From: a virus
Length of the DNA stretch: 42,892 nt
Virus record (IMG/VR): IMGVR_UViG_3300030117_000512
Coordinates: 1 to 42,892 of that record
Strand: one strand, 5' to 3'
Part shown: positions 9,774 through 26,081 of the stretch, in pieces
How the letters are laid out: each line of letters begins with the position of its first letter
Position numbering within the stretch: the first letter of the stretch is position 1
Made by a program: the position numbers and the translations under genes
Notes under the pieces: generated by a model
Database searches by the model: none
Told to the model about the DNA's origin: nothing
What the model saw: the letters and a program-made list of their open reading frames with translations, nothing else

Positions 9774-10034
9774 TTAGCTGAATCTACGAAAGCTTGATGT
9801 TTTCTTTGCAATCTTGCGGGGTTGTTTAGAAAATTGTTTACCTCTTCTAGTCGCTTTGCGTTTAGCAGCCGAAGAGGCGGCGTATTCAGAGGGCGATAAA
9901 GCCTTAATTGCTTTTTCAGGTAAGTAACGCTCACCAGTTGCTTTACTCCCTTGTGTACTAGGTTTACCAGACTTTGTTCGCCATTTTTGTTTTGTCCACG
10001 CAACTAGTGACCTCTGTGATTTTTTAAGTGCCAT
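9774..10034 (-). CDS. Conserved basic phage protein of unknown function
   Basis: 86 aa, pI clearly high. The core WTKQKWRTKSGKPSTQG ... ATGERYLPEKAIKAL with SPSEYAA and a Lys/Arg-rich tail is a pattern repeated across marine podo- and myoviruses. Probable nucleic-acid contact given about 30% Lys/Arg. Another frame of 122 aa overlaps it but lacks this conserved pattern. It overlaps the DUF1289 gene by 31 bp. Function unknown. Confidence 0.75.
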   Translation of the reverse strand: MALKKSQRSLVAWTKQKWRTKSGKPSTQGSKATGERYLPEKAIKALSPSEYAASSAAKRKATRRGKQFSKQPRKIAKKTSSFRRFS

Positions 10035-14948: not shown

Positions 14949-15151
14949 GTTGTTTTAATCTTGCCTTCTTCAAGCATACATTTATATTTTAAAGCATAAT
15001 AGTTTGGCATATATGAGGGTAACTCTACAGCTATCTCATATGCTCTTGTAACACATTGCTTTTCTGTTTTGTATGGACCTTCTAAATCTTCTAGCGTGTG
15101 ACATACATTCGTTGTGCCTACTAGACAAACAAGCACAAATGCTTCAAACAT
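14888..15151 (-). CDS. Small secreted or membrane-anchored protein
   Basis: 87 aa. MFEAFVLVCLVGTTNVCHTL is a short signal/anchor-like start. It is followed by LEGPYKTEKQCVTRAYEIAV and MPNYYALKYKCM, with three further cysteines positioned for disulphides in the periplasm. Similar proteins occur in marine phages. The last 20 residues are encoded in the overlap with the DUF6321 gene and look less conserved. Function unknown. Confidence 0.65.
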   Translation of the reverse strand: MFEAFVLVCLVGTTNVCHTLEDLEGPYKTEKQCVTRAYEIAVELPSYMPNYYALKYKCMLEEGKIKTTWQKKQKSLEKQENLRSVED

Positions 15152-15356
15152 CCTCTAACATTCCTTCTGCTTTCATAGCGTTCTCTACGTGCTTCAGCGT
15201 ATAACGTTTACCTGTCTTTGCTTCTATCGCAGCACGAGTGTAAAATACGGAACTGTGAGGAATATGTAACTTATGTAAAGTATTTGTACGAATCGCATCG
15301 TAAAATGATTCTAAAATATTCTCTGGTGTATATAGTTTTACTGATTTTTTACTCAT
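15144..15356 (-). CDS. First gene of the leftward late operon, conserved hypothetical
   Basis: 70 aa from ATG 15356 (a TTG two codons earlier is less likely). LYTPENILESFYDAIRTNTL then IPHSSVFYTRAAIEAKTGKR and LKHVENAMKAEGML suggest a small helical, winged-helix-like fold. It is preceded by a 116-nt leader from a perfect promoter. No clear Shine-Dalgarno. Its first position suggests a regulatory or early-late role; function unknown. Confidence 0.7.
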   Translation of the reverse strand: MSKKSVKLYTPENILESFYDAIRTNTLHKLHIPHSSVFYTRAAIEAKTGKRYTLKHVENAMKAEGMLEDV

Positions 15357-15478
15357 TGTCAAGAAACAATTTATTTAGCACGGAATTTATTGGGGTAATT
15401 TTAGTTTTACTATGTAGTTATAGTGTTTATTATAGTTATATACTACTTATAGTTGACTACTTAGTTTTACTATACATA

Positions 15479-15507
15479 ATTATACTCGGTTTTTGACTTT
15501 TTGTCAA
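15479..15507 (-). promoter_or_regulatory. Perfect-consensus sigma70 promoter of the leftward late operon
   Basis: Minus strand TTGACA (15507-15502), exactly 17 nt, TATAAT (15484-15479): all 12 bases match. It points at the gene starting at 15356 and the whole 15-kb late operon. The -35 is part of a TTGAC-TTTTT-GTCAA palindrome, which could also bind a regulator. Confidence 0.8.
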
Positions 15508-15683: not shown

Positions 15684-15690
15684 GTCATAG
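15684..15690 (+). promoter_or_regulatory. Half-site of the GTCATAG palindrome
   Basis: GTCATAG with the usual upstream context (AAAAAAGT) but a right arm reading CTAGCCA in place of CTATGAC. Looks like a decayed or half site. Confidence 0.35.
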
Positions 15691-15735: not shown

Positions 15736-15829
15736 TCTAATTTCTAGAAACTGATAAGAAAACAGTTTATAGTTATAGCTTAAATCGTCATAGGCTATGA
15801 CGTTTTTACTATGATAGTTTCTAATTAGA
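15736..15829. repeat. Inverted repeat flanking palindrome copy 1
   Basis: TCTAATTTCTAGAAACTGAT at 15736 is matched in inverted orientation by CTATGATAGTTTCTAATTAG at 15809, with a 3-base gap. The exact palindrome at 15787-15801 lies between the arms. Confidence 0.45.
15787..15801. promoter_or_regulatory. GTCATAG palindrome, copy 1
   Basis: GTCATAG-G-CTATGAC, flanked by C and G to give a 17-bp palindrome, followed by TTTTT. Lies in the noncoding control region. Confidence 0.7.
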
Positions 15830-15838
15830 ATATTTAAA

Positions 15839-15937
15839 CATATATCTATATATTTTTATGAGCTTCAAAATAAACTATCTATACACATATTAATTTTATA
15901 AGCTCATACTCTATTACATACGCATATATAGATATAT
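15839..15937. repeat. Nested AT-rich inverted repeats
   Basis: Outer arms ATATATCTATATAT (15840-15853) and ATATATAGATATAT (15924-15937) are exact complements. Inner arms TATGAGCTT (15857-15865) and AAGCTCATA (15900-15908) are exact too. The right outer arm directly abuts a TTGACA box at 15939. Could be an unwinding element or cruciform of an origin. Confidence 0.6.
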
Positions 15938-15938
15938 A

Positions 15939-15966
15939 TTGACACTAAACGTAAATGCTTTAATAT
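15939..15966 (+). promoter_or_regulatory. Rightward promoter for the first early gene
   Basis: TTGACA (15939-15944), 16-nt spacer, TAATAT (15961-15966; 4 of 6 bases). It begins TTGACACTA, as do four other early promoter candidates. Start of transcription would be about 50 bp before the ATG at 16026. Confidence 0.55.
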
Positions 15967-16025
15967 TTATATTGAAGCTTAAAAAGTTTCATAATTTTAA
16001 TTTAACAATATGAAAGGTAAAAATT

Positions 16026-16778
16026 ATGTTAAATTTATTTAAAAACAAAAAGACTAAAAACGAAAACGTAAAGCCAAAATTATCAATAGCTAAACAAATA
16101 AATAATCTTAGTAGTTTTGATAATATTAAATCTACTGTTAAAACTTGTTTAGATAATCGTCAAAATACCTATAAGAGTTTTATTGATAATTTACCATATG
16201 AGATAGCACTAGGTAGTTATTTAAATAATCTAGATAGTGAAGCTTCTAATCAAAAGAATAGAAATAAATGGAAGCATAACGAATTAGCTAAAAATGGATT
16301 TGGTATTCATACGACTAATGAGAAAAATCAAAGTAAATTTGAGTATACAGTTTTTACAAAACAAGAATTGAATGTGAGAAAACAAGCTTTTAAACATTCT
16401 ACTATGTTTTATAATTACTGTAGTAAAAACGATTACACTAGTTTTGTTTATGCTTGGCAGAATTTTAGAAAAGATAATATTGAATTATTTGCTACAAGTG
16501 ATAATTCAAAACAAGCTTCACATAATCGTAAAACTACTAAACAATCTAAAACTAATAAAAAAGAAGCTTCTAAAAATACAGTTTCTTTTGATAGTCAGAA
16601 AATGCTAGAGAAAATTGTTAGTAATAAATCTTATAAAGAATTATCTAATGAAGCACTTGCAAAGCAATGTTTAGTTTTAGTGCAAGTTATGTATGCCGAA
16701 AATGGTATGGATTTTGACAAGCTTATGACTAACGATAAAACTAAAACCCCAATATTAAAAGCTTTAAAAATAGCATAA
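16026..16778 (+). CDS. Isolated early gene, Asn/Lys-rich hypothetical protein
   Basis: 250 aa with very high Asn, Lys and Ser and strongly AT-biased codons, more so than neighbouring genes. Hydrophilic throughout: a basic N terminus, a central segment with FEYTVFTKQELNVRKQAF and YTSFVYAWQNFRKDNIEL, a Ser/Lys/Thr linker (about 158-185), and a helical C terminus (ELSNEALAKQCLVLVQVMYA). AAAGG precedes the ATG. It has its own promoter and two terminators. First early gene or acquired 'moron'; a host-takeover factor is possible. Family not recognised. Confidence 0.75.
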   Translation: MLNLFKNKKTKNENVKPKLSIAKQINNLSSFDNIKSTVKTCLDNRQNTYKSFIDNLPYEIALGSYLNNLDSEASNQKNRNKWKHNELAKNGFGIHTTNEKNQSKFEYTVFTKQELNVRKQAFKHSTMFYNYCSKNDYTSFVYAWQNFRKDNIELFATSDNSKQASHNRKTTKQSKTNKKEASKNTVSFDSQKMLEKIVSNKSYKELSNEALAKQCLVLVQVMYAENGMDFDKLMTNDKTKTPILKALKIA

Positions 16779-16802
16779 CTTAAAAATACAAACTTTAAAA
16801 TT

Positions 16803-16829
16803 AGCCTAGTTTTTTACTAGGCTTTTTTT
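16803..16829 (+). terminator. Rho-independent terminator 1 after the isolated gene
   Basis: Stem AGCCTAGT / ACTAGGCT (8 bp, perfect), 5-nt T loop, then seven T. Begins 25 bp after the stop codon. Confidence 0.88.
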
Positions 16830-16860
16830 ATGCCTTAAATTAATTACAATATATTCTTAT

Positions 16861-16892
16861 AGCTATCATTTTTTAGTGATAGCTTTTTTTTT
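16861..16892 (+). terminator. Rho-independent terminator 2
   Basis: Stem AGCTATCA / TGATAGCT (8 bp, perfect), 8-nt loop, then a run of T. A second terminator within 35 bp isolates the upstream gene from the rightward operon. Confidence 0.85.
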
Positions 16893-16905
16893 ATCTTTAA
16901 AAAGT

Positions 16906-16920
16906 GTCATAGCCTATGAC
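16906..16920. promoter_or_regulatory. GTCATAG palindrome, copy 2
   Basis: GTCATAG-C-CTATGAC, preceded by AAAAAGT and followed by GTTTTT. Lies 14 bp after the second terminator. Confidence 0.7.
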
Positions 16921-16951
16921 GTTTTTCTTTCCCTATGCTCATAAAGGTCGT

Positions 16952-17047
16952 GACTACGGTCATAACTAGAGAGGTCTTGAGCAGATCAACTGTAGCAAAA
17001 TCCAGGACTTGTTGCAGTTTCCCTAACTACGGTCTTAACTAGAGAAG
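16952..17047 (+). repeat. Two direct repeats, 73 bp apart
   Basis: ACTACGGTCATAACTAGAGA at 16953 recurs as ACTACGGTCTTAACTAGAGA at 17026, one mismatch in 20. They lie in a 384-bp stretch (16779-17162) without genes, which otherwise holds two terminators, two palindromes and a promoter module. Possible regulator sites or parts of a small RNA. Confidence 0.5.
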
Positions 17048-17061
17048 CAATCGGCTATGGC

Positions 17062-17101
17062 TTGACACTACCTACTGCTATGCTAGGCTTATAGATAATC
17101 A
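17062..17101 (+). promoter_or_regulatory. TTGACACTAC...ATAATCA module, copy 1
   Basis: TTGACACTAC, 23 variable bases containing CTATGCTAGGCT, then ATAATCA. The -35-like box is exact, but a -10 at the usual distance is unclear (TTATAG is 21 nt away). Precedes the rightward small-gene cluster starting at 17163. Confidence 0.55.
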
Positions 17102-17118
17102 CAGTAGTGGTTACTGTG
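17100..17118 (+). other. Hairpin before palindrome copy 3
   Basis: CACAGTA / TACTGTG, 7-bp stem with a 5-nt loop, 10 bp upstream of the palindrome. No T-tract. Confidence 0.45.
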
Positions 17119-17128
17119 GTGCAAAAGT

Positions 17129-17143
17129 GTCATAGACTATGAC
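17129..17143. promoter_or_regulatory. GTCATAG palindrome, copy 3
   Basis: GTCATAG-A-CTATGAC, preceded by AAAAGT and followed by GATTTT. Lies 19 bp before the start of the gene at 17163, in its leader. Confidence 0.75.
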
Positions 17144-17162
17144 GATTTTAGAAAGGTATATT

Positions 17163-17384
17163 ATGAGAATACATTATAACGACAGACCGAACTTAGCTAA
17201 GAGTGCTATTGGCAGACTATATATGCATCAGCCTAGAGGTAGGTACTACACGTATTACGAGATGGATCGTATAGGTGCATATGAAGCTACGTTTGTTATA
17301 GAAGCAGAAAAGCGAAAGTATCATCAGAAAAGAATTAAGCAATTCAGTAACGAGTTAGATCAACTATTAGAGGGGGAAGACTAA
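17163..17384 (+). CDS. Early hypothetical protein
   Basis: 73 aa, starting MRIHYNDRPNLAKSAIGRLY. Start 17163 is chosen because AAAGG stands upstream; a further in-frame ATG at 17139 lies inside the palindrome without RBS. Tyr/Arg-rich N-terminal half (RGRYYTYYEMDRIGAYEA), then a charged helix. No family recognised. First gene of an early cluster with overlapping stops and starts. Confidence 0.7.
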   Translation: MRIHYNDRPNLAKSAIGRLYMHQPRGRYYTYYEMDRIGAYEATFVIEAEKRKYHQKRIKQFSNELDQLLEGED

Positions 17385-17608
17385 TGGAAGACTTTGAGAA
17401 TACCTATATAGGCAAACTGTGGTATATTCTTTTGAGTGATGACAAGAGATCATTCAATGAATATTTCTCAGAGGAGCATGGCATCACATTAAATGATGAC
17501 ATCACAGATAAACAATTAACTTTTCTGTGTAAGCTTCTAATGAGATTAGGCGATAAGAAATTAATTCAAGTTGATTCAATTAGAGAATATATGAAGGAGG
17601 AACTATAA
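17384..17608 (+). CDS. Early hypothetical acidic protein
   Basis: 74 aa, MEDFENTYIGKLWYILLSDD..., acidic and helical. ATG overlaps the previous stop (TAATG) behind an AGGGGGAAG ribosome-binding site. Soluble, no membrane segment. Small acidic early proteins often inhibit host enzymes, but nothing here identifies a target. Confidence 0.7.
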   Translation: MEDFENTYIGKLWYILLSDDKRSFNEYFSEEHGITLNDDITDKQLTFLCKLLMRLGDKKLIQVDSIREYMKEEL

Positions 17609-17760
17609 TGTTTATTAACTTAGAAAACGTCATAGACTATGACGATAATACTATCCAAGAAGAGCAATCACAAATGCTTTACACCACATGGGAAGAAGCA
17701 ACTGAGATAAGCTTTGATGAAGCACAACAACAACTAGAAAGGAAACAGTTATGGATATAA
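17608..17760 (+). CDS. 50-aa early protein carrying the palindrome in frame
   Basis: MFINLENVIDYDDNTIQEEQ then SQMLYTTWEEATEISFDEAQ and a short basic end. GGAGGAAC lies before the ATG. Codons 8-13 (N-V-I-D-Y-D) are made by the GTCATAG palindrome at 17629. Highly acidic. The reading frame continues correctly across the palindrome, and the next gene starts inside its end (17751). No family recognised. Confidence 0.65.
   Translation: MFINLENVIDYDDNTIQEEQSQMLYTTWEEATEISFDEAQQQLERKQLWI
17629..17643. promoter_or_regulatory. GTCATAG palindrome, copy 4 (inside a gene)
   Basis: GTCATAG-A-CTATGAC preceded by AAAAC and followed by GATAA. Lies in the coding sequence of the 50-aa gene, 19 bp after its start codon. 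Confidence 0.75.
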
Positions 17761-17927
17761 GAGATATGTTATGTGATATGTATGATATTAGAAGGCAAGT
17801 AAAACAAGCTAAATTATTTGATGCACCAAAAGATAATGAGGGCAGTTCCATTACTGTTGGTGAATGTATTGACAATGTTATTGAGCAATTATCAGATAAG
17901 CTTGAAACAGTAGAGGAGATTTCGTAG
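17751..17927 (+). CDS. 58-aa early protein with a fused paralog tail
   Basis: MDIRDMLCDMYDIRRQVKQA and onwards, ending KLETVEEIS. AAAGGAAAC precedes the ATG. The last nine codons share exact DNA with two separated parts of the gene at 19233 (its LETV near the start and its VEEIS end), joined at GTA. The tail therefore looks like the scar of an internal deletion in a second copy of that gene. No family recognised. Confidence 0.65.
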   Translation: MDIRDMLCDMYDIRRQVKQAKLFDAPKDNEGSSITVGECIDNVIEQLSDKLETVEEIS

Positions 17928-17934
17928 TGCTAAA
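17909..17934 (+). repeat. 26-bp direct repeat, copy A
   Basis: Identical to 19490-19515. Contains the end of VEEIS, its stop, a GAGGAG ribosome-binding site and a GTG start. Here the GTG opens only a five-codon frame (17927-17944), so the downstream gene is missing. Confidence 0.8.
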
Positions 17935-17967
17935 TGAGTTTTGACTAGTCTAGGATTTTGGTTGGTA

Positions 17968-18008
17968 TTGACACTACCCATAACTATGATAGGCTATTTA
18001 CATAATCA
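17968..18008 (+). promoter_or_regulatory. TTGACACTAC...ATAATCA module, copy 2
   Basis: TTGACACTAC, 24 bases containing ATAACTATGATAGGCTAT, then ATAATCA and AACGA. Lies in the 110-bp gap before the gene at 18038 and probably drives it. Confidence 0.6.
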
Positions 18009-18037
18009 AACGACTAACTTTTATAGGAGATATTATT

Positions 18038-18310
18038 ATGATTAAGTTTGATATTTTAGAAAGAGTGAAAGCAGAAAACACTCTACGACTTCTTAGAAAA
18101 GAAGGTTACTTTCCTACTTTCAAGAATACTAGAAGCTACAAGGTACGACTACATGAGATTACACTTACTAAAAGTGGCTTACATTATGTAGTGCATAAGA
18201 GTAAAGAAAGCTTTTACTTTCCTACTACTTATAAGAACTCTTGTACTCTTATTAAGAACTACAAGGGCAAGGGGTTTATACAAAAGCCTTTAATTAAAAA
18301 AGTGTCATAG
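18038..18310 (+). CDS. Early hypothetical basic protein
   Basis: 90 aa, MIKFDILERVKAENTLRLLR..., Lys/Tyr/Thr-rich with probable beta-rich middle (YKVRLHEITLTKSGLHYVVH). ATAGGAG lies before the ATG. Its stop TAG is itself the last three bases of the left arm of palindrome copy 5. Net basic, so nucleic-acid binding is possible. No family recognised. Confidence 0.7.
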   Translation: MIKFDILERVKAENTLRLLRKEGYFPTFKNTRSYKVRLHEITLTKSGLHYVVHKSKESFYFPTTYKNSCTLIKNYKGKGFIQKPLIKKVS

Positions 18311-18318
18311 ACTATGAC
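18304..18318. promoter_or_regulatory. GTCATAG palindrome, copy 5 (across a stop codon)
   Basis: GTCATAG-A-CTATGAC preceded by AAAAAAGT and followed by GATTT. The upstream gene stops within it (TAG 18308-18310); the next gene starts 21 bp downstream. Confidence 0.75.
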
Positions 18319-18338
18319 GATTTACAAGGGGAAAAACT

Positions 18339-19019
18339 ATGTCATATAAATTATTTGGGGTTGGTACTAATACCAAAGTTGTCAAAGGTGATGGTTCAGA
18401 ATACATGACTGCCATCATGCACCTCAAACCTAAAAACAAAAGAGTGTGTCCATTTCAAGATGTAGCTAACTGTAAAGATGCTTGTTTAGATTCTGCTGGT
18501 CGTGGTGTATTCACAAGTGTGCAAAGTGCTAGAGAAAGAAAGACTGATCTTTGGCTTACTGATAAAGTTACATTCATGGAGTATATGTATCAAGACATGA
18601 CTGTCTTTAGACGTAGAATGCACAATAAAGGTGTTCAACCTTGTGCTAGACCTAATGGCACTAGCGACATACCTTTTGAGAGAACTAATCTCATGTATGA
18701 CTTTAGCGACATACAGTTCTATGATTACACCAAGACTTATAAGAGAGTGTATAGTAAGTTACCACCTAACTACCATCTCACACTATCTTATAGTGAAGCT
18801 AACATGGATTATGCAGAAAAGATATATCAAGCAGTTCTTGACACAAACACGAACATGGCAGTTGTGTCTACTCTACCTATGCCTAAAAAGTTCAGAGATT
18901 TAGATTGCATCAATGGAGATGAAGATGATCTACGATTCCTTGATCCTCAAGGTGTAGTTGTGTGGTTGTCTGCCAAGGGCAAAGCTAAAAAAGACACAAG
19001 TGGCTTTGTTATACATTAA
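18339..19019 (+). CDS. GP88-family protein
   Basis: 226 aa. MHLKPKNKRVCPFQDVANCK followed by DACLDSAGRGVFTSVQSARE, a KTDLW segment and RPNGTSDIPFERTNLM are the signature of the phage 'gene product 88' family (Cys-rich N terminus, then R-x-N-G-T-S-D). Four cysteines in the N-terminal part may hold a metal or iron-sulphur site. Widely spread in phages and some plasmids; biochemical role unknown. Lies between two palindrome copies, in the early block. Confidence 0.8.
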   Translation: MSYKLFGVGTNTKVVKGDGSEYMTAIMHLKPKNKRVCPFQDVANCKDACLDSAGRGVFTSVQSARERKTDLWLTDKVTFMEYMYQDMTVFRRRMHNKGVQPCARPNGTSDIPFERTNLMYDFSDIQFYDYTKTYKRVYSKLPPNYHLTLSYSEANMDYAEKIYQAVLDTNTNMAVVSTLPMPKKFRDLDCINGDEDDLRFLDPQGVVVWLSAKGKAKKDTSGFVIH

Positions 19020-19026
19020 TCAAAAC

Positions 19027-19041
19027 GTCATAGACTATGAC
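19027..19041. promoter_or_regulatory. GTCATAG palindrome, copy 6
   Basis: GTCATAG-A-CTATGAC preceded by AAAAC and followed by GAATTTT. Lies 7 bp after the GP88 stop and 22 bp before the next ATG. Confidence 0.75.
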
Positions 19042-19063
19042 GAATTTTAATAGGAGAAATAAA

Positions 19064-19231
19064 ATGCTTATAAAAATAATAACAATAGTAACTCTAATCA
19101 TGGCAACTGTAATAGGTGTCCTATCTTTTTCTGAACTATCAGAACATAGTGGTATCTTGTACATAGGTACGTGGACATTTTCAGTATTAGCTATAAGCGA
19201 AACATTTAGAAGATTAGTAAAGGGGATATAA
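19064..19231 (+). CDS. Small two-TM membrane protein
   Basis: 55 aa: MLIKIITIVTLIMATVIGVL forms one membrane segment and GILYIGTWTFSVLAI a second, with a basic C terminus (RRLVKGI). Start 19064 is preceded by AGGAG; an earlier in-frame ATG lies inside the palindrome and has no RBS. Possible superinfection-exclusion or membrane-modifying protein, no family recognised. Confidence 0.65.
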   Translation: MLIKIITIVTLIMATVIGVLSFSELSEHSGILYIGTWTFSVLAISETFRRLVKGI

Positions 19232-19232
19232 G

Positions 19233-19508
19233 ATGACTAAAAAAACTATGCTTGAAACAGTATTTCCAAATGCGAATACCAACAATGGTGTTACATTTAC
19301 TGAAGAAAATATAGATCAAGACTACAAAGATGGTTGGAGATATATAGTTTGGGTAGGTGGTAATGATGACTACTACAAGAACTATAAAGATGCCAAGCGA
19401 GATGCTGAAGAATGGAAAGACAAAGGCTATGATGATGTTATCATTGAGGAAATAGTAAAAAAACCTTCAGGTTGTTTTGTACATAAAAAAGTAGAGGAGA
19501 TTTCGTAG
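19233..19508 (+). CDS. Early hypothetical acidic protein
   Basis: 91 aa. The middle (GWRYIVWVGGNDDYYKNYKD then AKRDAEEWKDKGYDDVIIEE) looks like a compact beta-alpha-beta domain rich in Asp and Tyr. AGGGG lies upstream. Parts of its sequence recur at the end of the 17751 gene, suggesting an earlier second copy. No family recognised. Confidence 0.65.
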   Translation: MTKKTMLETVFPNANTNNGVTFTEENIDQDYKDGWRYIVWVGGNDDYYKNYKDAKRDAEEWKDKGYDDVIIEEIVKKPSGCFVHKKVEEIS

Positions 19509-19515
19509 TGCTAAA
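19490..19515 (+). repeat. 26-bp direct repeat, copy B
   Basis: Identical to 17909-17934. Here the GTG at 19508 opens a real 46-aa frame, so this copy appears to be the intact source. Confidence 0.8.
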
Positions 19516-19648
19516 AAAGAACTATAAAGAATCCTGGAAATTTCAGAGAAAGATGATCAACAGAATCAGAGAGAATAGAATAAGACTACTTGTCAAGACT
19601 TGTATTAGAAAACTAAAAAGGGAGAAAAGATATGCTACAAGTAACTAG
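19508..19648 (+). CDS. 46-aa basic microprotein (GTG start)
   Basis: VLKKNYKESWKFQRKMINRI then RENRIRLLVKTCIRKLKREK, over one third Lys/Arg, a probable single amphipathic helix. The GTG shares its G with the preceding stop (TAGTG) and has GAGGAG 9 nt upstream; its end overlaps the next gene's start. Could bind RNA or DNA. No family recognised. Confidence 0.55.
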   Translation: MLKKNYKESWKFQRKMINRIRENRIRLLVKTCIRKLKREKRYATSN

Positions 19649-19859
19649 AAAATCTATCTTGACGGGCAACACGACTACAATGTCATTGCCTATCACACAA
19701 GAGCAACTAGATTTGTATGAGAACAGTAAAGTCTTCATACAAGATGCTTTTCCTAACTTGGATAAGCATGACAGAGAGTTCATTAAAACTGGAATAACCA
19801 AACAAGAATGGACTAAATTAATATTAGATAATAGCACAATGAATGAAGGAGAAATCTAA
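19632..19859 (+). CDS. Conserved phage hypothetical protein
   Basis: 75 aa. RKSILTGNTTTMSLPITQEQ then LDLYENSKVFIQDAFPNLDK and HDREFIKTGITKQEW form a pattern shared with many marine and T7-like phages: short beta-hairpin start and helical end that includes the F-I-x-T-G-I-T turn. GGAG precedes the ATG. Function unknown; probably a small regulator or inhibitor in the early block. Confidence 0.75.
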   Translation: MLQVTRKSILTGNTTTMSLPITQEQLDLYENSKVFIQDAFPNLDKHDREFIKTGITKQEWTKLILDNSTMNEGEI

Positions 19860-20398
19860 TGAAAGTAAATAAACATTTAAAGATTGATGCGATAACCAAC
19901 TCAACAGGTAGACTACCAAGAGACATGGAGAACTTGGAGATATACCATTACCCATCATCTAAGAAAGAGCCTATCAACGTAGGCGAGATGGACTTGACGT
20001 ATCTCATACGAGCATTCGCTAAGTGTCAGAGGACTCTCATGGAGAACAGTCCTACCGAGCAGTATCACGATCTGCATGGCAAGATAGCAAAGCTAGAGGA
20101 GATGCTTGAAGAGAAAGATGAGATCATAGATAAGTTTGTTAAAGAAGAACATAGATGGAGAAAAGCATATCATGATAACTTCAATCTTGAAGGACATAGA
20201 TATATCTTCAGCGACATACCCAACGATGCTAGTGGTAGGGCATTCGTTGCACAACTAAGAGAATATCTTAACACAGATTCCTACAAGATAAGAGTGCGTG
20301 GTCAGTATCTAATTGATGGCGAAGATTGGAAAAGATATTCTTATGGTCAGCCTATAGAAAAGTCCAAGTGTCTAAGAGTATATGTGGACAAGAAATGA
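19859..20398 (+). CDS. Early hypothetical protein with central coiled coil
   Basis: 179 aa. N-terminal part unclear; central heptad-like helix (HGKIAKLEEMLEEKDEIIDK, about 89-115); C-terminal part with GHRYIFSDIPNDASGRAFVA and VRGQYLIDGEDWKRY, likely a small alpha/beta domain. ATG overlaps the previous stop (TAATG). Soluble. No family recognised. Confidence 0.65.
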   Translation: MKVNKHLKIDAITNSTGRLPRDMENLEIYHYPSSKKEPINVGEMDLTYLIRAFAKCQRTLMENSPTEQYHDLHGKIAKLEEMLEEKDEIIDKFVKEEHRWRKAYHDNFNLEGHRYIFSDIPNDASGRAFVAQLREYLNTDSYKIRVRGQYLIDGEDWKRYSYGQPIEKSKCLRVYVDKK

Positions 20399-20649
20399 GA
20401 ATAGCTTCACTAGAAAAACCACAAGGGATAACTTGGAGAACTGCTAAAAGATTCAAGGCAGATTTCTATCATGCCAAGTTTCCCATATGTGGTGGTTATT
20501 TAGTCTACGCAGTTGTAGGTCGCAAGTGGGTACGTGTTACACAAGGGGATTTAGTTTCTACTGATAAGAGTACACGCACCCATCTTGCTAGATTCAAAAT
20601 GCCACTAAGTGAATGGCAACAGTTAAACAAGGAGAAGTTCAATGAGTAA
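20395..20649 (+). CDS. Early hypothetical basic protein
   Basis: 84 aa from ATG 20395, whose stop/start overlap with the previous gene (ATGA) supports it over a start 69 bp upstream. MRIASLEKPQGITWRTAKRF and GGYLVYAVVGRKWVRVTQGD suggest a small beta-barrel-like fold with basic surface. No family recognised. Confidence 0.65.
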   Translation: MRIASLEKPQGITWRTAKRFKADFYHAKFPICGGYLVYAVVGRKWVRVTQGDLVSTDKSTRTHLARFKMPLSEWQQLNKEKFNE

Positions 20650-20860
20650 AGTATTATACCAAGTACGTAAAGGTACTCACGTTCAATGGAGTTTAGATAA
20701 GTATGATCTTCAGAAAGTTACAAATGGAAACTCAATGATACCTCAACTAGATGGTGTCAAAATAGAGAAGATAAAATTTGATTCATACAAACAGATGGTT
20801 GATCACATGAGTAATATTATTCAACTCATATCCTATTTAAGAAACAGAGGGGTAAATTAA
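20642..20860 (+). CDS. Early hypothetical protein
   Basis: 72 aa, MSKVLYQVRKGTHVQWSLDK..., ending SNIIQLISYLRNRGVN. AAGGAG lies before the ATG, inside the previous gene. Mixed beta/alpha, soluble. No family recognised. Confidence 0.65.
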   Translation: MSKVLYQVRKGTHVQWSLDKYDLQKVTNGNSMIPQLDGVKIEKIKFDSYKQMVDHMSNIIQLISYLRNRGVN

Positions 20861-20861
20861 A

Positions 20862-21044
20862 ATGACTTTAAAAGAAAAGATTGAGTTTATAGTTCAACAA
20901 GAGAAAGCTTCCAACAATTCCTGGAAATGGATAGCATTTGCAGATGCGAAAACTATAAATGATTTGTATGAATATTGGACTCAAGAAGAGAACCCCAACG
21001 AGGGGATTGACACTACTGATAACTGTAGTAGTATAAACACATAA
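20862..21044 (+). CDS. Early hypothetical protein, end overlaps a promoter module
   Basis: 60 aa: MTLKEKIEFIVQQEKASNNS then WKWIAFADAKTINDLYEYWT and an Asn/Thr/Asp-rich tail encoded by the TTGACACTAC module at 21007. The N-terminal part looks like a helix pair. GAGGGG precedes the ATG. No family recognised; the tail may be there only because the promoter lies in it. Confidence 0.6.
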   Translation: MTLKEKIEFIVQQEKASNNSWKWIAFADAKTINDLYEYWTQEENPNEGIDTTDNCSSINT

Positions 21045-21047
21045 TCA
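21007..21047 (+). promoter_or_regulatory. TTGACACTAC...ATAATCA module, copy 3
   Basis: TTGACACTAC, 24 bases with a small ACTAC/GTAGT palindrome and TATAAA (19 nt after TTGACA), then ATAATCA and AAACGA. Lies at the end of the 60-aa gene, just before the gene at 21064. Confidence 0.6.
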
Positions 21048-21063
21048 AAACGAGGAGAGTGTA

Positions 21064-21423
21064 ATGAAAGCTTATTTCATAAATGCAAAAGACGAACTTA
21101 TAGTAGAAACTGACATCAAGAATTGGGATCATAAGAAAGAACTCATAGGTGCTCGTATGCTAGAGAGATACCCATACTCTGTAAATGGTAACGATCTATG
21201 GACAAACGAAGAAGCATTGTTTGGAGATTATTCATATGACTTTGTTATTGATAACTGTATCGTGCATGGTAACGCAGTAGTGCTAGGCACAGATGACGAG
21301 AAGCATGAATCCATAGATGTGAATCACTTGGCTTTGATCAATCTTAAATCAAGAGTTAAGTTCTTAGGCAAGAGATGGATTGATCATGATAAAATAAAGT
21401 TCCAAGTAATGGAATGGAAGTAA
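21064..21423 (+). CDS. Early hypothetical protein, DUF3846-like layout
   Basis: 119 aa. MKAYFINAKDELIVETDIKN start, NGNDLWTNEEALFGDYSYDF middle and IDNCIVHGNAVVLGTDDE later resemble the arrangement of DUF3846-type phage proteins (small beta-rich domain with a 'D-E-A-L' turn and a conserved G-x-A-x-V-x-G). The family match is weak. RBS GAGGAG. Function unknown. Confidence 0.6.
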   Translation: MKAYFINAKDELIVETDIKNWDHKKELIGARMLERYPYSVNGNDLWTNEEALFGDYSYDFVIDNCIVHGNAVVLGTDDEKHESIDVNHLALINLKSRVKFLGKRWIDHDKIKFQVMEWK

Positions 21424-21435
21424 GGAGTATCAGTA

Positions 21436-21522
21436 ATGTTTCCTAATGATAAAGATACATTAGTAATATTAATTGTGAGTGGAATAGTTATGCTATTCCT
21501 CTCATGCTACATGGGAGTGTAA
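21436..21522 (+). CDS. 28-aa single-TM microprotein
   Basis: MFPNDKDTLVILIVSGIVML then FLSCYMGV: a short acidic head and one membrane helix. AAGGAG lies 8 nt before the ATG, and the stop is 1 bp from the next gene's ATG. Very small membrane peptides of this kind may modulate the host envelope. No family recognised. Confidence 0.55.
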   Translation: MFPNDKDTLVILIVSGIVMLFLSCYMGV

Positions 21523-21523
21523 C

Positions 21524-22693
21524 ATGAATGTACTAAGTTTATTTGATGGCATGAGTTGTGGACAACTTGCCTTACAGAGGATAGGTGCAAAAGTAAACAA
21601 CTACTTTGCTTCAGAGATTGATCCATATGCAATCAAGATAGCCAAGAAAAACTTCCCTAATATGGTGCACGTAGGAGATGTAACCAATGTTATGAAAGGT
21701 ATTCCTATAGATAAGGTCAAGGATGATTGTCTGCTAGAAATGATGGCTACAGAGATAGACCTAATACTTGCAGGATCACCTTGCCAAGGTTTTTCTTTTG
21801 CTGGTAAACAACTTAATTTTGATGATCCTCGTAGCAAATTATTCTTTGAGTTTATTAGGATTGTTAATAATATCAATACGAGAAAAGCACAGTTGGGTAA
21901 ACCACAAGTCAAGTTCTTGTTAGAAAATGTGCGTATGAAGAAAGAGTCACAAGATGTGATTACAAAAGCTCTAGGTGTTGAGCCTATGCTAATCAACTCT
22001 GCTCTTGTATCAGCACAGAATCGTAACAGATTATATTGGACTAACATACCTAATGTTACACAACCACAAGACAAAGGTATTGTGTTGTCAGACATACTAG
22101 AAGACTTACCATTTGACGAGCCACCAAACTATCTCAAGGGCAAGTGGTGTGGCAGAGTGCGAGGAGATCTTGTCAAGTCTGTTGATGATGACAAAGCACA
22201 TTGTCTTACTGCGTCTATGTGGAAAGGTCAGATACCTACGTTTGTCAAAAGCAAGAAGCCTATACAAGTTGGTGTGGCTAGTGACATCAAAGGGTATGAC
22301 ATAATCAAACGAGTGTATTCGCCACAAGGCAAGTCACCTACACTTACGACCATGCAAGGTGGACACAGAGAACCTAAAGTTGCTATTGGTCGCATTGTTA
22401 ATCGTAGGCTAGACGAGAATGGTACTAGAAAAGATGATCAACTTGAGTTGCCTTTCACGAGACAACTTGAAGTGAGTGCAGATACAAAGTCTAACTGTCT
22501 TACCACAGTTCAGAAAGATAACGTGGTAGTTAGTGAGAACTTGTATAGAAAGCTTACACCACTAGAGTGTGAGAGACTACAAACTTTACCCGACAACTAC
22601 ACAGAAGGTGTTTCCAAGACTCAACGATACAAGATGATTGGTAACGGTTGGACAGTAGATGTCATAACACATATCTTGAAGGAGATTGTATAA
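21524..22693 (+). CDS. DNA (cytosine-5-)-methyltransferase
   Basis: 389 aa. Motif I LFDGMSCG (6-13), motif II-like ASEIDPYA, motif IV GSPCQGF with catalytic Cys87, motif VI ENV (134-136), motif VIII QNRNRLYW (165-172), a target-recognition region around 200-320, and motif X GNGWTVDV near the end. All main C5-MTase motifs are present, so it is probably active, transferring methyl from SAM to cytosine. No partner restriction enzyme is nearby, which suggests protection of phage DNA from host restriction. Target sequence cannot be read from the gene. Confidence 0.92.
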   Translation: MNVLSLFDGMSCGQLALQRIGAKVNNYFASEIDPYAIKIAKKNFPNMVHVGDVTNVMKGIPIDKVKDDCLLEMMATEIDLILAGSPCQGFSFAGKQLNFDDPRSKLFFEFIRIVNNINTRKAQLGKPQVKFLLENVRMKKESQDVITKALGVEPMLINSALVSAQNRNRLYWTNIPNVTQPQDKGIVLSDILEDLPFDEPPNYLKGKWCGRVRGDLVKSVDDDKAHCLTASMWKGQIPTFVKSKKPIQVGVASDIKGYDIIKRVYSPQGKSPTLTTMQGGHREPKVAIGRIVNRRLDENGTRKDDQLELPFTRQLEVSADTKSNCLTTVQKDNVVVSENLYRKLTPLECERLQTLPDNYTEGVSKTQRYKMIGNGWTVDVITHILKEIV

Positions 22694-22815
22694 TGTTTCA
22701 TAGAATAGTAGATTTTTTTAACGTTAACTATGGCGAAGGTACTAGATACGACCTAGACTATGGTAAATTATTAATTATAGCATTGTGTATTTACATAGCA
22801 GTAAAGGTGTCATGA
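22693..22815 (+). CDS. 40-aa single-TM microprotein
   Basis: MFHRIVDFFNVNYGEGTRYD then LDYGKLLIIALCIYIAVKVS: aromatic head and one C-terminal membrane helix. The ATG overlaps the methyltransferase stop (TAATG) with GGAG upstream; the stop overlaps the next ATG. No family recognised. It lies before a wall hydrolase and could help its export, but that is speculation. Confidence 0.6.
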   Translation: MFHRIVDFFNVNYGEGTRYDLDYGKLLIIALCIYIAVKVS

Positions 22816-23252
22816 TGATTATGGAAGCTCTAACGTGCCTAGCACTTAACGTCTATCACGAAGCTAAGAATCAAAGTTTCATTGGACAAGTGGCAGTTGC
22901 ACAAGTTGTGATGAACAGAGTCAAAGATTCACGATACCCTAACGATGTGTGTGATGTAGTCAAACAAGGTTTAACTTACAAGTGGAAGCCTACACTCCCT
23001 ATCAAGAACAGATGCCAATTTAGTTGGTACTGTGATGGTAAGAGTGATAAGCCACGAGAAGCTAAAGCATGGGAGACTGCCTTACACGTTGCTAATGGTG
23101 TGTACAATGGACACTTAGATGACTTTGTGGAAGGTGCTACACATTATCATGCTCACTATGTTAATCCTAGTTGGGCAGAAACAAAAACTTATATAACTAG
23201 AATAGATGACCACATATTTTATAGGTGGGATATTGAGAGAGGTAGAAAGTGA
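22812..23252 (+). CDS. SleB-like cell wall hydrolase
   Basis: 146 aa. LALNVYHEAKNQSFIGQVAV then AQVVMNRV carries the catalytic Glu17 (Y-H-E-A) of the SleB/Hydrolase_2 family, muralytic enzymes acting as transglycosylases or amidases. CQFSWYCDG and GATHYHAHYVNPSWA are further family marks. No signal peptide. Start 22812 overlaps the previous stop (ATGA). It is the second peptidoglycan enzyme of the phage; its place in the early block rather than the lysis cassette is notable. Confidence 0.88.
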   Translation: MMIMEALTCLALNVYHEAKNQSFIGQVAVAQVVMNRVKDSRYPNDVCDVVKQGLTYKWKPTLPIKNRCQFSWYCDGKSDKPREAKAWETALHVANGVYNGHLDDFVEGATHYHAHYVNPSWAETKTYITRIDDHIFYRWDIERGRK

Positions 23253-23386
23253 AACAAAAAAAGTATCACGATTGGGTTTACATGGCAGATGACTCAATGA
23301 ACAAAGTATTAAAAACAGTAGTGGTGGCACTTCATATCTATGGACTTTGGGTGTTCCTACAAGCGATATGGGAGAAGTATATATGA
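23249..23386 (+). CDS. 45-aa single-TM microprotein (GTG start)
   Basis: VKQKKYHDWVYMADDSMNKV then LKTVVVALHIYGLWVFLQAI and WEKYI: basic head and one membrane helix. GTG overlaps the hydrolase stop (GTGA), with GAGAGG upstream; the stop overlaps the next ATG. Likely coupled to the wall hydrolase. No family recognised. Confidence 0.6.
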   Translation: MKQKKYHDWVYMADDSMNKVLKTVVVALHIYGLWVFLQAIWEKYI

Positions 23387-23568
23387 ACTTAATAGAACTA
23401 GAGAAAAAAATAAAAGAGCATGAGATCATACAAAAGTTTAAGGATGGTGTTACGGATGCTATGTTACATGGCACGAGAGATGAAAAACAATCACATCATT
23501 ATTATAAACAAGGCTATGATTTTGGTATAGATTTGTTTTGTAAACAAGAGGAGTGGACACATGAATAA
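23383..23568 (+). CDS. Early hypothetical protein
   Basis: 61 aa from ATG 23383, chosen for its overlap with the previous stop and GGAGAAG upstream. MNLIELEKKIKEHEIIQKFK is helical; then EKQSHHYYKQGYDFGIDLFC. Soluble. No family recognised. Confidence 0.65.
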   Translation: MNLIELEKKIKEHEIIQKFKDGVTDAMLHGTRDEKQSHHYYKQGYDFGIDLFCKQEEWTHE

Positions 23569-23917
23569 AATAGTACACGATACATGGCAATCTGTCATGA
23601 ATCATGAACGCAATCCACTACGACACATACCTGATTTAAATACAAGGCATATGGTCATGCAAGTGTTAGCATGGATGTGGTGCATAGTATTTTCTATGTA
23701 CTTTGGGAGTATGTGGATTTTTGGAATAACTGCGATTGCTCATGTATTTATTATATGTGCAGTTGTAATAACAGTAGCTACCTTTGAGGCCGCAAAGCGA
23801 AAGCCTACATTCTTCTTAAAGAAAGGTTATCACACACCAAGTAGAAGTAGGTATATGTACTACAAAGGTAAAAGAATTAAATATGACGATAACGATAGAG
23901 GGGGAGAGCATGAATAG
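23561..23917 (+). CDS. Conserved two-TM phage membrane protein
   Basis: 118 aa. NHERNPLRHIPDLNTRHMVM leads into two membrane segments (about VLAWMWCIVFSMYFGSMW and GITAIAHVFIICAVVITVA), with a basic cytoplasmic tail. The 'N-P-L-R-H-I-P' head and 'W-M-W-C' turn recur in marine phage proteins. GAGGAG precedes the ATG. Possible role in membrane remodelling or exclusion; unknown. Confidence 0.7.
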   Translation: MNKIVHDTWQSVMNHERNPLRHIPDLNTRHMVMQVLAWMWCIVFSMYFGSMWIFGITAIAHVFIICAVVITVATFEAAKRKPTFFLKKGYHTPSRSRYMYYKGKRIKYDDNDRGGEHE

Positions 23918-24419
23918 ATTTATAATAGAACAAACACCATACTTAATATCAAGATCTTTATGTGATCAGCACATAGTAAAGATGCCACTAGAAGAAACAC
24001 AGATGCTTTGTACTGCTCTGTGGCATCGTGCTCCACATTTTGCTGAGAAGCATAACTTATACAAACCTGTTCACGAAAAGCATCCTTGCACATTGTGGGC
24101 GATGAAGAATCAGAGCAACTATGAGTTCGCCTGGTCTTTGCTTGGACATATGTTATATGAGTACGAGGACAGATTTAAGAAGAAGCATGGTTGTTCAGTG
24201 CATTATTTAACTTTACAAAAGGGTATATATCTAATGCCAAAAGGTAAAATGTCACCACACCCACAATGTTTCAGTGGACTAGATCATCTCAAGACAGACG
24301 AGTTTATGCCCATAGAAGCATACAGAAAATTTTATATTGTAGACAAATCTAGGTTTGCAAGGTATAACTATACAGAAAAACCACATTGGATGGAAGAAGA
24401 TGAACTTAAAAGAGCTTAG
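23910..24419 (+). CDS. Conserved phage protein with DQH motif
   Basis: 169 aa from ATG 23910 (RBS GGGGGAG; an upstream ATG has none). LCDQHIVKMPLEETQMLCTA then HPCTLWAMKNQSNYEFAWSL and SPHPQCFSG are conserved in many marine phages and a few bacteria. D-Q-H near the N terminus recalls pyrimidine-dimer glycosylases, but the rest does not fit clearly. A DNA- or nucleotide-related enzyme is possible. Next to integrase and replication genes. Confidence 0.7.
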   Translation: MNRFIIEQTPYLISRSLCDQHIVKMPLEETQMLCTALWHRAPHFAEKHNLYKPVHEKHPCTLWAMKNQSNYEFAWSLLGHMLYEYEDRFKKKHGCSVHYLTLQKGIYLMPKGKMSPHPQCFSGLDHLKTDEFMPIEAYRKFYIVDKSRFARYNYTEKPHWMEEDELKRA

Positions 24420-25293
24420 TGAAAAGTATTATTTATCTAGCGACTTCAGTAGTTTAGCAGATAAAACTAAAGTAGATTATCAATATTGTTGTTCAAGATT
24501 ATTGGACACTAAAGTTGATGGCAATTTGATGGCAAAAATGTGTCTTACAAAACTAAACGGTGCGATGGCTAGACGAGGGTATGAAGTGTGGCTATCTAGA
24601 GGTACTTTCTCAGCCAATGCTATATGTTCTGTGGCTAGAAAGATATATTCGTTTGCTATGGAGATGGGTTATGCAGAGTCTAACCCTTTTTCCACCTTCA
24701 AAAGAAAGACCACACAAGTTAGGAAGGTTGTTTGGACAAAAGAACAAGTCAAACAGTTTCTTGATACCTCTTATTCTAAGTTTAGATGGAGAAATATAGG
24801 TCTGATTGTGCAAATGGCATACGAGTGGTGTCAAAGAGTAGGCGATATGCGAATGTTGGAGTTTCAAAACATAGATTTTGACAAACAGATACTAAATTTA
24901 GAACAATCTAAGAGAAGAGCATTAGTTCATCTGCCAATAAGTGATTCTTTGTTAGAAATGTTACAACAACAGAGAGAAGAATTTGGTTTTCAGAAATATG
25001 TCGCACCATATCCCTATCCATTTCAAGGCTCATACAAGCCATATTCACTTACTAGGCTCTCAAAGGTAGCTAGAGATGTAATGAATGCCTCAGAGCTTCC
25101 CAAAGAGCTACGAATAGCCGATTTAAGACGGACAGGAACTACAGAAATGGTTGAGGCTGGTGTATCTATGGGTCAAATAATGTCTGTCACAGGTCACGCA
25201 AATCCAAGTAGTGTGAAGCCTTATATGAAAAATACTTTCGCATCTGCAGAAAGTGCGTTGACAAAAAGAGAAAGCTATGGTAAAAGCATTTAA
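24400..25293 (+). CDS. int: Tyrosine recombinase (phage integrase)
   Basis: 297 aa from ATG 24400 (GGAAGAAG upstream). N-terminal core-binding domain (1-110), catalytic domain (111-297). Arg146 in CQRVGDMR, Arg243 in ADLRR, His266 in VTGHANPSS and the nucleophile Tyr275 in KPYM are in place. Position 240, usually His of the H-x-x-R box, is Ala. The enzyme would join phage and host att sites, suggesting a temperate life style, though no repressor or attP was recognised. Pelagiphages and HMO-2011-type phages often carry such a gene. Confidence 0.88.
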   Translation: MNLKELSEKYYLSSDFSSLADKTKVDYQYCCSRLLDTKVDGNLMAKMCLTKLNGAMARRGYEVWLSRGTFSANAICSVARKIYSFAMEMGYAESNPFSTFKRKTTQVRKVVWTKEQVKQFLDTSYSKFRWRNIGLIVQMAYEWCQRVGDMRMLEFQNIDFDKQILNLEQSKRRALVHLPISDSLLEMLQQQREEFGFQKYVAPYPYPFQGSYKPYSLTRLSKVARDVMNASELPKELRIADLRRTGTTEMVEAGVSMGQIMSVTGHANPSSVKPYMKNTFASAESALTKRESYGKSI

Positions 25294-25313
25294 CTGCCGA
25301 GGGGGTCTAATAC

Positions 25314-26081
25314 ATGAAACTACAGAAAACGATAGACTCTACTGACCTAAAAGTAGGGCAAACTAAGAGAATGAACTGCCCAGTATGCGATGGAGATAAG
25401 ACTTTCACAATAACTAATGCGATGGGAAAGATAATTTGGAACTGCTACAAGGCATCTTGTAAAGTTTCAGGTGCAAAAACAGGAAACGTATCAGCCGAGA
25501 CTATAGAGAAAGCCATGCTAGGTAAAAACGTCATAGACTATGACGAATTTGAACTGCCTAGTTACATTGTTTATGGTGGTCTGCGAGTTCAAGTCAAAAA
25601 ATTTGCATACGACTATAAGTTAGTTCCTGGAAGTGTGCCTCTTTACTTTGATGTGAAAGAAAACAGAATAGTATTTCTCATTCGTGATGGCAAACGAGTT
25701 GTAGATGCGATTGGTCGTGCTACAGACAGAAGACAACCTAAATGGAAGAGATACGGAAAAAGTGACACACCATACAGTTTTGGTAGTGGTAGTGTTGCAG
25801 TAATTGTTGAGGATTGCATAAGTGCTACGGTCATAGGAAGCCACAGAGTTCGTGGGGTAGCTTTGCTTGGCACAACACTATCTGATGCACATAGAGATTT
25901 TCTCATGCAGTTCTCAACAATCATAGTAGCCTTAGACCCCGATGCACTACGTAAAACACTTAGTATTGCTAACGAGCTACGAGCCTACAAGAATAATGTA
26001 AAAGTTTTAAAGCTAAAAGATGATCTAAAATATCGTAATGAAGAAGATATAAATAATCTAAATAAACTCATAGGAGATTGA
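25314..26081 (+). CDS. DNA primase (T7 gp4 N-terminal type)
   Basis: 255 aa. Zinc site Cys22, Cys25, Cys44, Cys49 (NCPVC ... NCYKASC). The TOPRIM core has E166 (VAVIVEDC) and D208-x-D210 (IVALDPDA), binding the metal ions for primer synthesis. T7 fuses this with the helicase; here the next gene is the helicase. Residues 72-77 (N-V-I-D-Y-D), between zinc and RNA-polymerase domains, are encoded by palindrome copy 7. AGGGGG precedes the ATG. Confidence 0.88.
   Translation: MKLQKTIDSTDLKVGQTKRMNCPVCDGDKTFTITNAMGKIIWNCYKASCKVSGAKTGNVSAETIEKAMLGKNVIDYDEFELPSYIVYGGLRVQVKKFAYDYKLVPGSVPLYFDVKENRIVFLIRDGKRVVDAIGRATDRRQPKWKRYGKSDTPYSFGSGSVAVIVEDCISATVIGSHRVRGVALLGTTLSDAHRDFLMQFSTIIVALDPDALRKTLSIANELRAYKNNVKVLKLKDDLKYRNEEDINNLNKLIGD
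25530..25544. promoter_or_regulatory. GTCATAG palindrome, copy 7 (inside primase)
   Basis: GTCATAG-A-CTATGAC preceded by AAAAAC and followed by GAATTT, the same flanks as copy 6, although this copy is coding sequence 6.5 kb away. Confidence 0.75.

Follow-up and report, generated by a model that had tools for sequence, protein, structure and literature searches.

Palindromic Sites in the Early Region

The DNA analyzed here (the "window," meaning the whole stretch of 42,892 nucleotides) is positions 1 to 42,892 of IMG/VR virus record IMGVR_UViG_3300030117_000512 and belongs to an HMO-2011-type phage, whose DNA polymerase, helicase, primase and integrase are 50–69% identical to those of Puniceispirillum phage HMO-2011. 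The element in question is a 15-bp palindrome, GTCATAG-N-CTATGAC, present in seven exact copies, all in the rightward early region and none in the leftward late block. The original prediction had located these copies at 15787, 16906, 17129, 17629, 18304, 19027 and 25530, six of the seven inside 3.3 kb and all confined to the early side, with a central base that varies (G, C, then A in five copies) and a half-site, GTCATAG, at 15684; every one of these observations proved correct. It had also described biased flanks, which holds for the A-rich 5′ flank and for an invariant G after the 3′ arm; the T-tract is inconsistent. The pair of bases flanking the palindrome (-1/+1) is C-G or T-G.

By our own estimate, about 2e-4 exact copies per window would be expected by chance. 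In the comparison with shuffled sequence that had been called for at the outset, a search allowing up to 3 mismatches returned 11 matches against 1.9 expected, and the shuffle maximum was 7, so that none of 100 shuffles reached the observed number. No copy beyond these seven occurs in the full 50,156-base record, in which a reversed control pattern gave 0 matches. Rfam and tRNA scans of the window found nothing.

The seven copies are numbered here as operators 1 to 7. Between the two divergent gene blocks lie the isolated half-site (15684..15690, plus strand) and operator 1 (GTCATAGGCTATGAC, 15787..15801), which is about -179 from the predicted start of P1 and is found in the same place in contigs L094 and L223. 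P1 (TTGACA-N16-TAATAT, 15939..15966, plus strand) is the predicted promoter of the first early gene (16026..16778, plus strand, 250 aa). An intrinsic terminator (16803..16823, plus strand) follows 25 nt past this gene, and a second lies at 16861..16884 (plus strand). Operator 2 (GTCATAGCCTATGAC, 16906..16920) lies 3′ of both terminators and about -183 from the start of P2, a predicted early promoter (TTGACA-N16-TAGGCT, 17062..17089, plus strand) that is situated between operators 2 and 3 and is also present in L223, at position 9911 of its reverse complement. Operator 3 (GTCATAGACTATGAC, 17129..17143) is centered at about +40 relative to the predicted start of P2 and stands 19 nt ahead of the next gene. 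Operator 4 (17629..17643) is near the start of open reading frame (ORF) 17608-17760; operator 5 (18304..18318) overlaps the end of ORF 18038-18310 and stands 20 nt before the start of the gene at 18339; operator 6 (19027..19041) is 22 nt before a gene start, with the Shine-Dalgarno sequence between; and operator 7 (25530..25544) is within the primase gene, in a loop that is unconserved in other phages. Operators 4 and 7 sit within reading frames, and both encode VIDYD.

Several other repeats and genes were observed in this part of the window. Promoter-like copies of TTGACACTAC...TAG(G/T)(C/A)T occur at 17062, 17968 and 21007 in a repeated segment, with an operator near the first only. A 20-bp direct repeat, ACTACGGTCATAACTAGAGA (95% identical, 16953-16972 and 17026-17045), lies between operators 2 and 3, upstream of the predicted P2, and a 30-bp repeat, AAACAGTAGAGGAGATTTCGTAGTGCTAAA (97% identical, 17905-17934 and 19486-19515), is found at the ends of two small genes. 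The early genes include a cytosine-5 DNA methyltransferase-like gene (21524-22693) with relatives in CRP-603 and L139. On the other side of the divergent region, a sigma-70 promoter with 12/12 consensus (TTGACA-N17-TATAAT, 15479-15507, minus strand) is directed into the leftward late block.

Conservation and Lineage-Specific Variants

The original prediction would have been undermined by loss of the palindrome from close relatives with conserved flanking sequence; instead, all seven copies are kept at matching places in close relatives (contigs L051, L087, L090, L094 and others). L051 retains the copies at 17129, 17629, 18304, 19027 and 25530, and L094 those at 15787, 16906, 17129 and 17629; the copy at 17629 is kept in all four of the named contigs. 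The gene that follows the 18304 copy has been replaced in L051 and L087 (34% identity), and the palindrome is retained. In the primase gene, 15 of 15 bases of the copy are unchanged at 76% protein identity, and the loop residues are unrelated in more distant phages; exact conservation of this DNA in an otherwise unconserved loop indicates that it is the DNA, and not the VIDYD peptide, that is conserved. An exact pattern search of viral contigs gave mostly single chance matches, and only contigs with several copies were taken as informative.

De novo searches of HMO-2011-type loci that cover the early region revealed, in most of them, similarly dispersed palindromes of this size, with a sequence that differs from lineage to lineage. 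The TGTCCCAA-N-TTGGGACA lineage carries 8–11 copies in its longer loci, and other lineages carry TGTCTGA-N3-TCAGACA (10 copies), ATCCCAA-N-TTGGGAT (6–7), TTATAAG-N-CTTATAA (6), GTTCC[CT]AA-N-TT[AG]GGAAC (5), GTC[GA]GATATC[CT]GAC (5), TTCCTAA-N-TTAGGAA (4), TGTCCGA-N2-TCGGACA (4) and a GTACTCA-N2-GAGTAC-type palindrome (4). Among cultured isolates, CRP-1 (5 copies) and CRP-345 (6 copies) share GTCCAA-N2-TTGGAC, and HMO-2011 itself has five copies of AGTCCG-N4-CGGACT; the families with 6-base arms occur at most twice in randomized genomes. Across lineages the outer GTC...GAC is often common and the inner bases vary. A similar dispersed set was found in an unrelated siphovirus (the L043 record, 47.7 kb).

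No comparable site family was found in scans of CRP-603, CRP-2, CRP-207, CRP-3, CRP-738, HTVC033P and CRP-9; the scan of CRP-235 covered its first 22 kb only. CRP-1, which has sites, and CRP-2, which does not, share the host strain FZCC0023. A common host factor is therefore unlikely to be what recognizes the palindromes, and the binder is most simply taken to be encoded by the phage. A different arrangement, a local array rather than a dispersed set, was seen in the control region of L256 and L246 (8572-8735 and 3865-3922, in reverse-complement coordinates), where TGTCAA-N4-TTGACA palindromes are clustered.

Position Relative to Promoters and Genes

Across the genomes scanned, the sites are confined to the early region. 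By our own gene calls, and with related genomes counted separately, 114 of 146 sites are intergenic where 36.5 would be expected; the majority of the 114 fall within about 35 nt of the next gene start. For the comparison with promoters, one genome was used per operator type (14 non-redundant lineages), and promoters were predicted by the pattern TTGACA-N16-18-TAnnnT. A site is centered +35 to +55 from the predicted start in 11 of 28 predicted early-region promoters, in 9 of the 14 lineages; under a circular-shift null the mean was 1.0, and the largest of 5000 shifts reached 6. The distance range (+30 to +59) was picked after the layouts had been inspected, so the resulting p-value is optimistic, with an excess that is still large.

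In the TGTCCCAA lineage, a further site is found directly next to the -35 box of P1, at a distance that hardly varies over nine loci. Operators 1 and 2 of this lineage are separated by 239, 249, 250, 260, 261 or 262, a set of distances that is helically phased (R 0.89, p 0.004, six values); this post hoc observation hints at looping between the two operators.

DNA Sites or RNA Hairpins

A palindrome located just before a gene could act either in DNA or, as a small leader hairpin that controls translation, a processing site or a weak terminator, in the RNA of early transcripts. The RNA alternative was given weight because many copies directly precede the Shine-Dalgarno sequence (over half of the intergenic copies have a start codon no more than about 35 nt downstream) and because the flanking C-G or T-G pair is compatible with wobble pairing; further, the window copies can fold into a 6–7-bp stem with a 3-base loop. 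These hairpins are weak (-4.7 to -6.7 kcal/mol), however, and the relatives do not preserve them: at least four sites in L043 and one in L258 place C opposite A, and sites in L132 and L139 place A opposite G, breaking the RNA pair. L258 has U-G variants as well, and the hint of an RNA hairpin that wobble pairs had given was lost once the C-A and A-G breaks had been found. The conserved information is in the stems; loop sequences vary, and non-palindromic centers occur in both orientations within one genome (four ACAG and one CTGT in HMO-2011; ACT/AGT and ACA/TGT in L146). Sites are also found upstream of predicted promoters and within genes as well as between them. The broken RNA pairs, the two-way centers, the placement of the sites and the weakness of the hairpins all follow if the site is a symmetric DNA sequence bound by a dimer. 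By their sequence features, then, the sites behave as DNA operators rather than RNA hairpins or terminators, and we regard an RNA element as unlikely. The weak bidirectional terminator and the mRNA processing site that had been listed among the first alternatives do not fit, for the same reasons; as intrinsic terminators, the window sites have weak stems and no constant T-run, and the terminators proper, at 16803 and 16861, are distinct from them.

The First Early Gene

A recurring layout emerged from the operator-bearing genomes: a site is followed by the first early gene (200–320 aa, of no known family), often by an intrinsic terminator, and then by another early promoter that has a site downstream of it. 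In all cases that include the control region, one site precedes the first rightward early gene and a second is placed either just after this gene or within the part of it that codes for the linker of its product. A strong intrinsic terminator follows 10–30 nt past the gene in the window, L223, the TGTCCCAA lineage, L146, L231, L254 and L250, and thus in at least five operator types. The L043 siphovirus shows the order site, strong promoter, 212-aa first gene, site.

The sequence family of the first gene tracks the operator type. When profiles of two first-gene families were run against every ORF of 32 genomes, each had the other family as its best match outside its own (E 0.0027 and 6e-4), and 12 genomes without operators yielded no credible match. 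Structure models of first-gene products have a folded N-terminal domain, a disordered linker and C-terminal helices, with moderate mean predicted local distance difference test (pLDDT) scores of 67.5 and 59.9. The weak structure matches of the window protein include winged-helix regulators (PefR, MarR, ArsR, MecI and PadR types; Z at most 3.5, Foldseek E at least 1), and these were not counted as evidence. On the basis of position and co-occurrence, the protein encoded by the first early gene (16026-16778) is most likely the operator binder. The original prediction had found no repressor gene to be recognizable, which stands as far as homology is concerned, and the position of this gene now supplies a candidate.

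The first leftward gene (15144..15362, minus strand, 72 aa), which served as an anchor, was also considered as the binder and ruled out, since it is found in phages without sites as well as in those with them. At its start, 38 bp (15328-15365) match Roseobacter phage CRP-1 exactly, the surrounding DNA being unrelated at this sensitivity.

Discussion

We consider it probable that the palindromes of this phage are the DNA operators of a stoperator-like system, bound by a dimeric, phage-encoded regulator that is probably the first early gene product. The regulator would bind just downstream of P2 and again before successive early genes and, once bound, would most likely block initiation or early elongation by the host RNA polymerase, acting as a series of dispersed "roadblocks" at about +40 of an early promoter and ahead of later early genes. 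With a promoter of its own, sites on both sides and, in many lineages, a terminator after it, the first gene could continue to be expressed when the genes farther downstream are silenced. Such repression could serve either lysogeny and immunity or lytic growth, by shutting off early genes at a set time. The window phage does carry an integrase gene, and operator sequences that differ among lineages are what would be expected if immunity groups diverge.

Several observations weigh against this interpretation. Such sites are absent from CRP-3, the only HMO-2011-type phage shown to integrate, and CRP-1 was not found to integrate (PMC6918029). The p-value for the promoter distance is optimistic, as described above, and the lineages compared are related, except for L043. 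Many internal sites have no recognizable promoter nearby, no promoter with a downstream site was found in CRP-345, CRP-1, L242, L259 or L139, and several lineages lack a clear terminator. Finally, the first-gene products have no recognized family (Pfam and PHROG searches gave nothing credible), no significant match to a solved or viral structure was obtained with their models, and no relationship could be detected between the family of the window gene and the other families of first-gene products (the profile comparison was non-significant). A scan of bacterial genomes returned one metagenome-assembled genome contig, in which the examined stretch has no repeated palindrome and so provides no prophage evidence.

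The sites could instead belong to a phage activator, or to an early-to-late switch factor other than the first-gene product. The site in the TGTCCCAA lineage, centered about -44 from P1, is in an activator-like position, and the first-gene product is still a candidate binder. However, an activator would not normally act at +35 to +55, the position of most sites that are associated with a promoter, and no other gene was seen to be bracketed by sites in every operator-bearing lineage; we therefore judge this alternative to be improbable.

A role in DNA maintenance (partition through parS-like sites, replication or packaging), which had also been raised at the outset, seems very unlikely: dispersed 15–17-bp palindromes do resemble centromere sites, one lineage has a perfect bacterial parS in its control region and one window copy is inside a replication gene (the primase), but no partition gene of the ParA/ParB type was recognized near the sites in a screen that covered part of the early ORFs, the parS motif is a different sequence limited to that one lineage, and neither the position relative to promoters nor the association with gene starts is expected of partition sites. 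The window sites are unrelated to bacterial parS (TGTTTCACGTGAAACA), the nearest parS-like match in the window, with 2 mismatches, being at 33938. The perfect parS lies between operators 1 and 2 of the TGTCCCAA lineage in L238 (5754-5769), L234, L236, L229, L227, L237 and L233, and with one mismatch in L240; scrambled palindromes gave 0 matches in 2.8 Mb. A host ParB might thus bind the phage control region in this lineage.

Among described systems, the operator interpretation can be compared to the stoperators of Cluster A mycobacteriophages, the analogy that the original prediction had also proposed. These are dispersed sites for the L5 gp71 repressor, located in promoters and short intergenic gaps, that are thought to halt both initiation and elongation and whose sequence specificity varies among relatives (PMC9283540). 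The likeness is one of arrangement: the sites in the window phage and its relatives are similarly dispersed in early-region promoters and intergenic gaps, and early confinement, intergenic placement and the presence of a site shortly after early promoters make this the best-fitting working analogy of those first listed. It does not extend to the site itself. L5 stoperators are asymmetric 13-bp sequences that a monomer binds and that are aligned with the direction of transcription (PMC9283540), whereas the HMO-2011-type sites are perfect 14–17-bp palindromes with symmetric arms and, in HMO-2011 and L146, with non-palindromic centers that face both ways. Nor was an L5-type repressor recognized, in that the candidate has no Pfam or PHROG match, direct comparison with gp71 not being part of the search. 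The system would thus work like stoperators but is not one. The original statement that no described element has this sequence holds for the sequence.

The compact palindromes also invite comparison with the start-associated sequences (SAS) of Cluster K mycobacteriophages, 13-bp asymmetric repeats (GGGATAGGAGCCC) with a Shine-Dalgarno core that lie tightly upstream of gene starts in the non-structural half of the genome, and with the accompanying extended SAS, which have 17-bp arms, a variable spacer and a subcluster-specific consensus and are proposed sites for a DNA-binding protein (PMC3203893). Both sets share with ours a placement before gene starts and, for the extended SAS, inverted repeats that are specific to a group; unlike SAS, our sites are compact palindromes of different sequence that stand before the Shine-Dalgarno sequence rather than containing its core. 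Other phages spread the operators of one repressor widely. Phage P1 has many scattered operators for C1, which are asymmetric 17-bp sites. In Streptomyces phage phiC31, the conserved inverted repeats (CIRs) are dispersed palindromic operators of about 17 bp in the early region, bound by the phage repressor, and in this general description these may be the closest working parallel.

Phages of the HMO-2011 type belong to the dominant phages of the ocean, and the control of their early genes is undescribed; the words "promoter" and "repressor" are absent from the text of a paper that compares them (PMC9038755). The lineage-specific sites suggest a widespread, undescribed system of control or immunity in this group. 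More broadly, and more tentatively, it is possible that an undescribed, fast-diverging repressor family is expressed from the first early gene, silences by roadblock (and perhaps by looping) and defines many immunity groups, both in HMO-2011-type phages and in at least one unrelated siphovirus. Isolates such as CRP-1, CRP-345 and HMO-2011 would allow a possible role in lysogeny to be tested directly. The operators point to an unrecognized family of regulators, and their lineage-specific sequences would offer a tag, readable from sequence, for the regulatory or immunity groups of uncultured phages.

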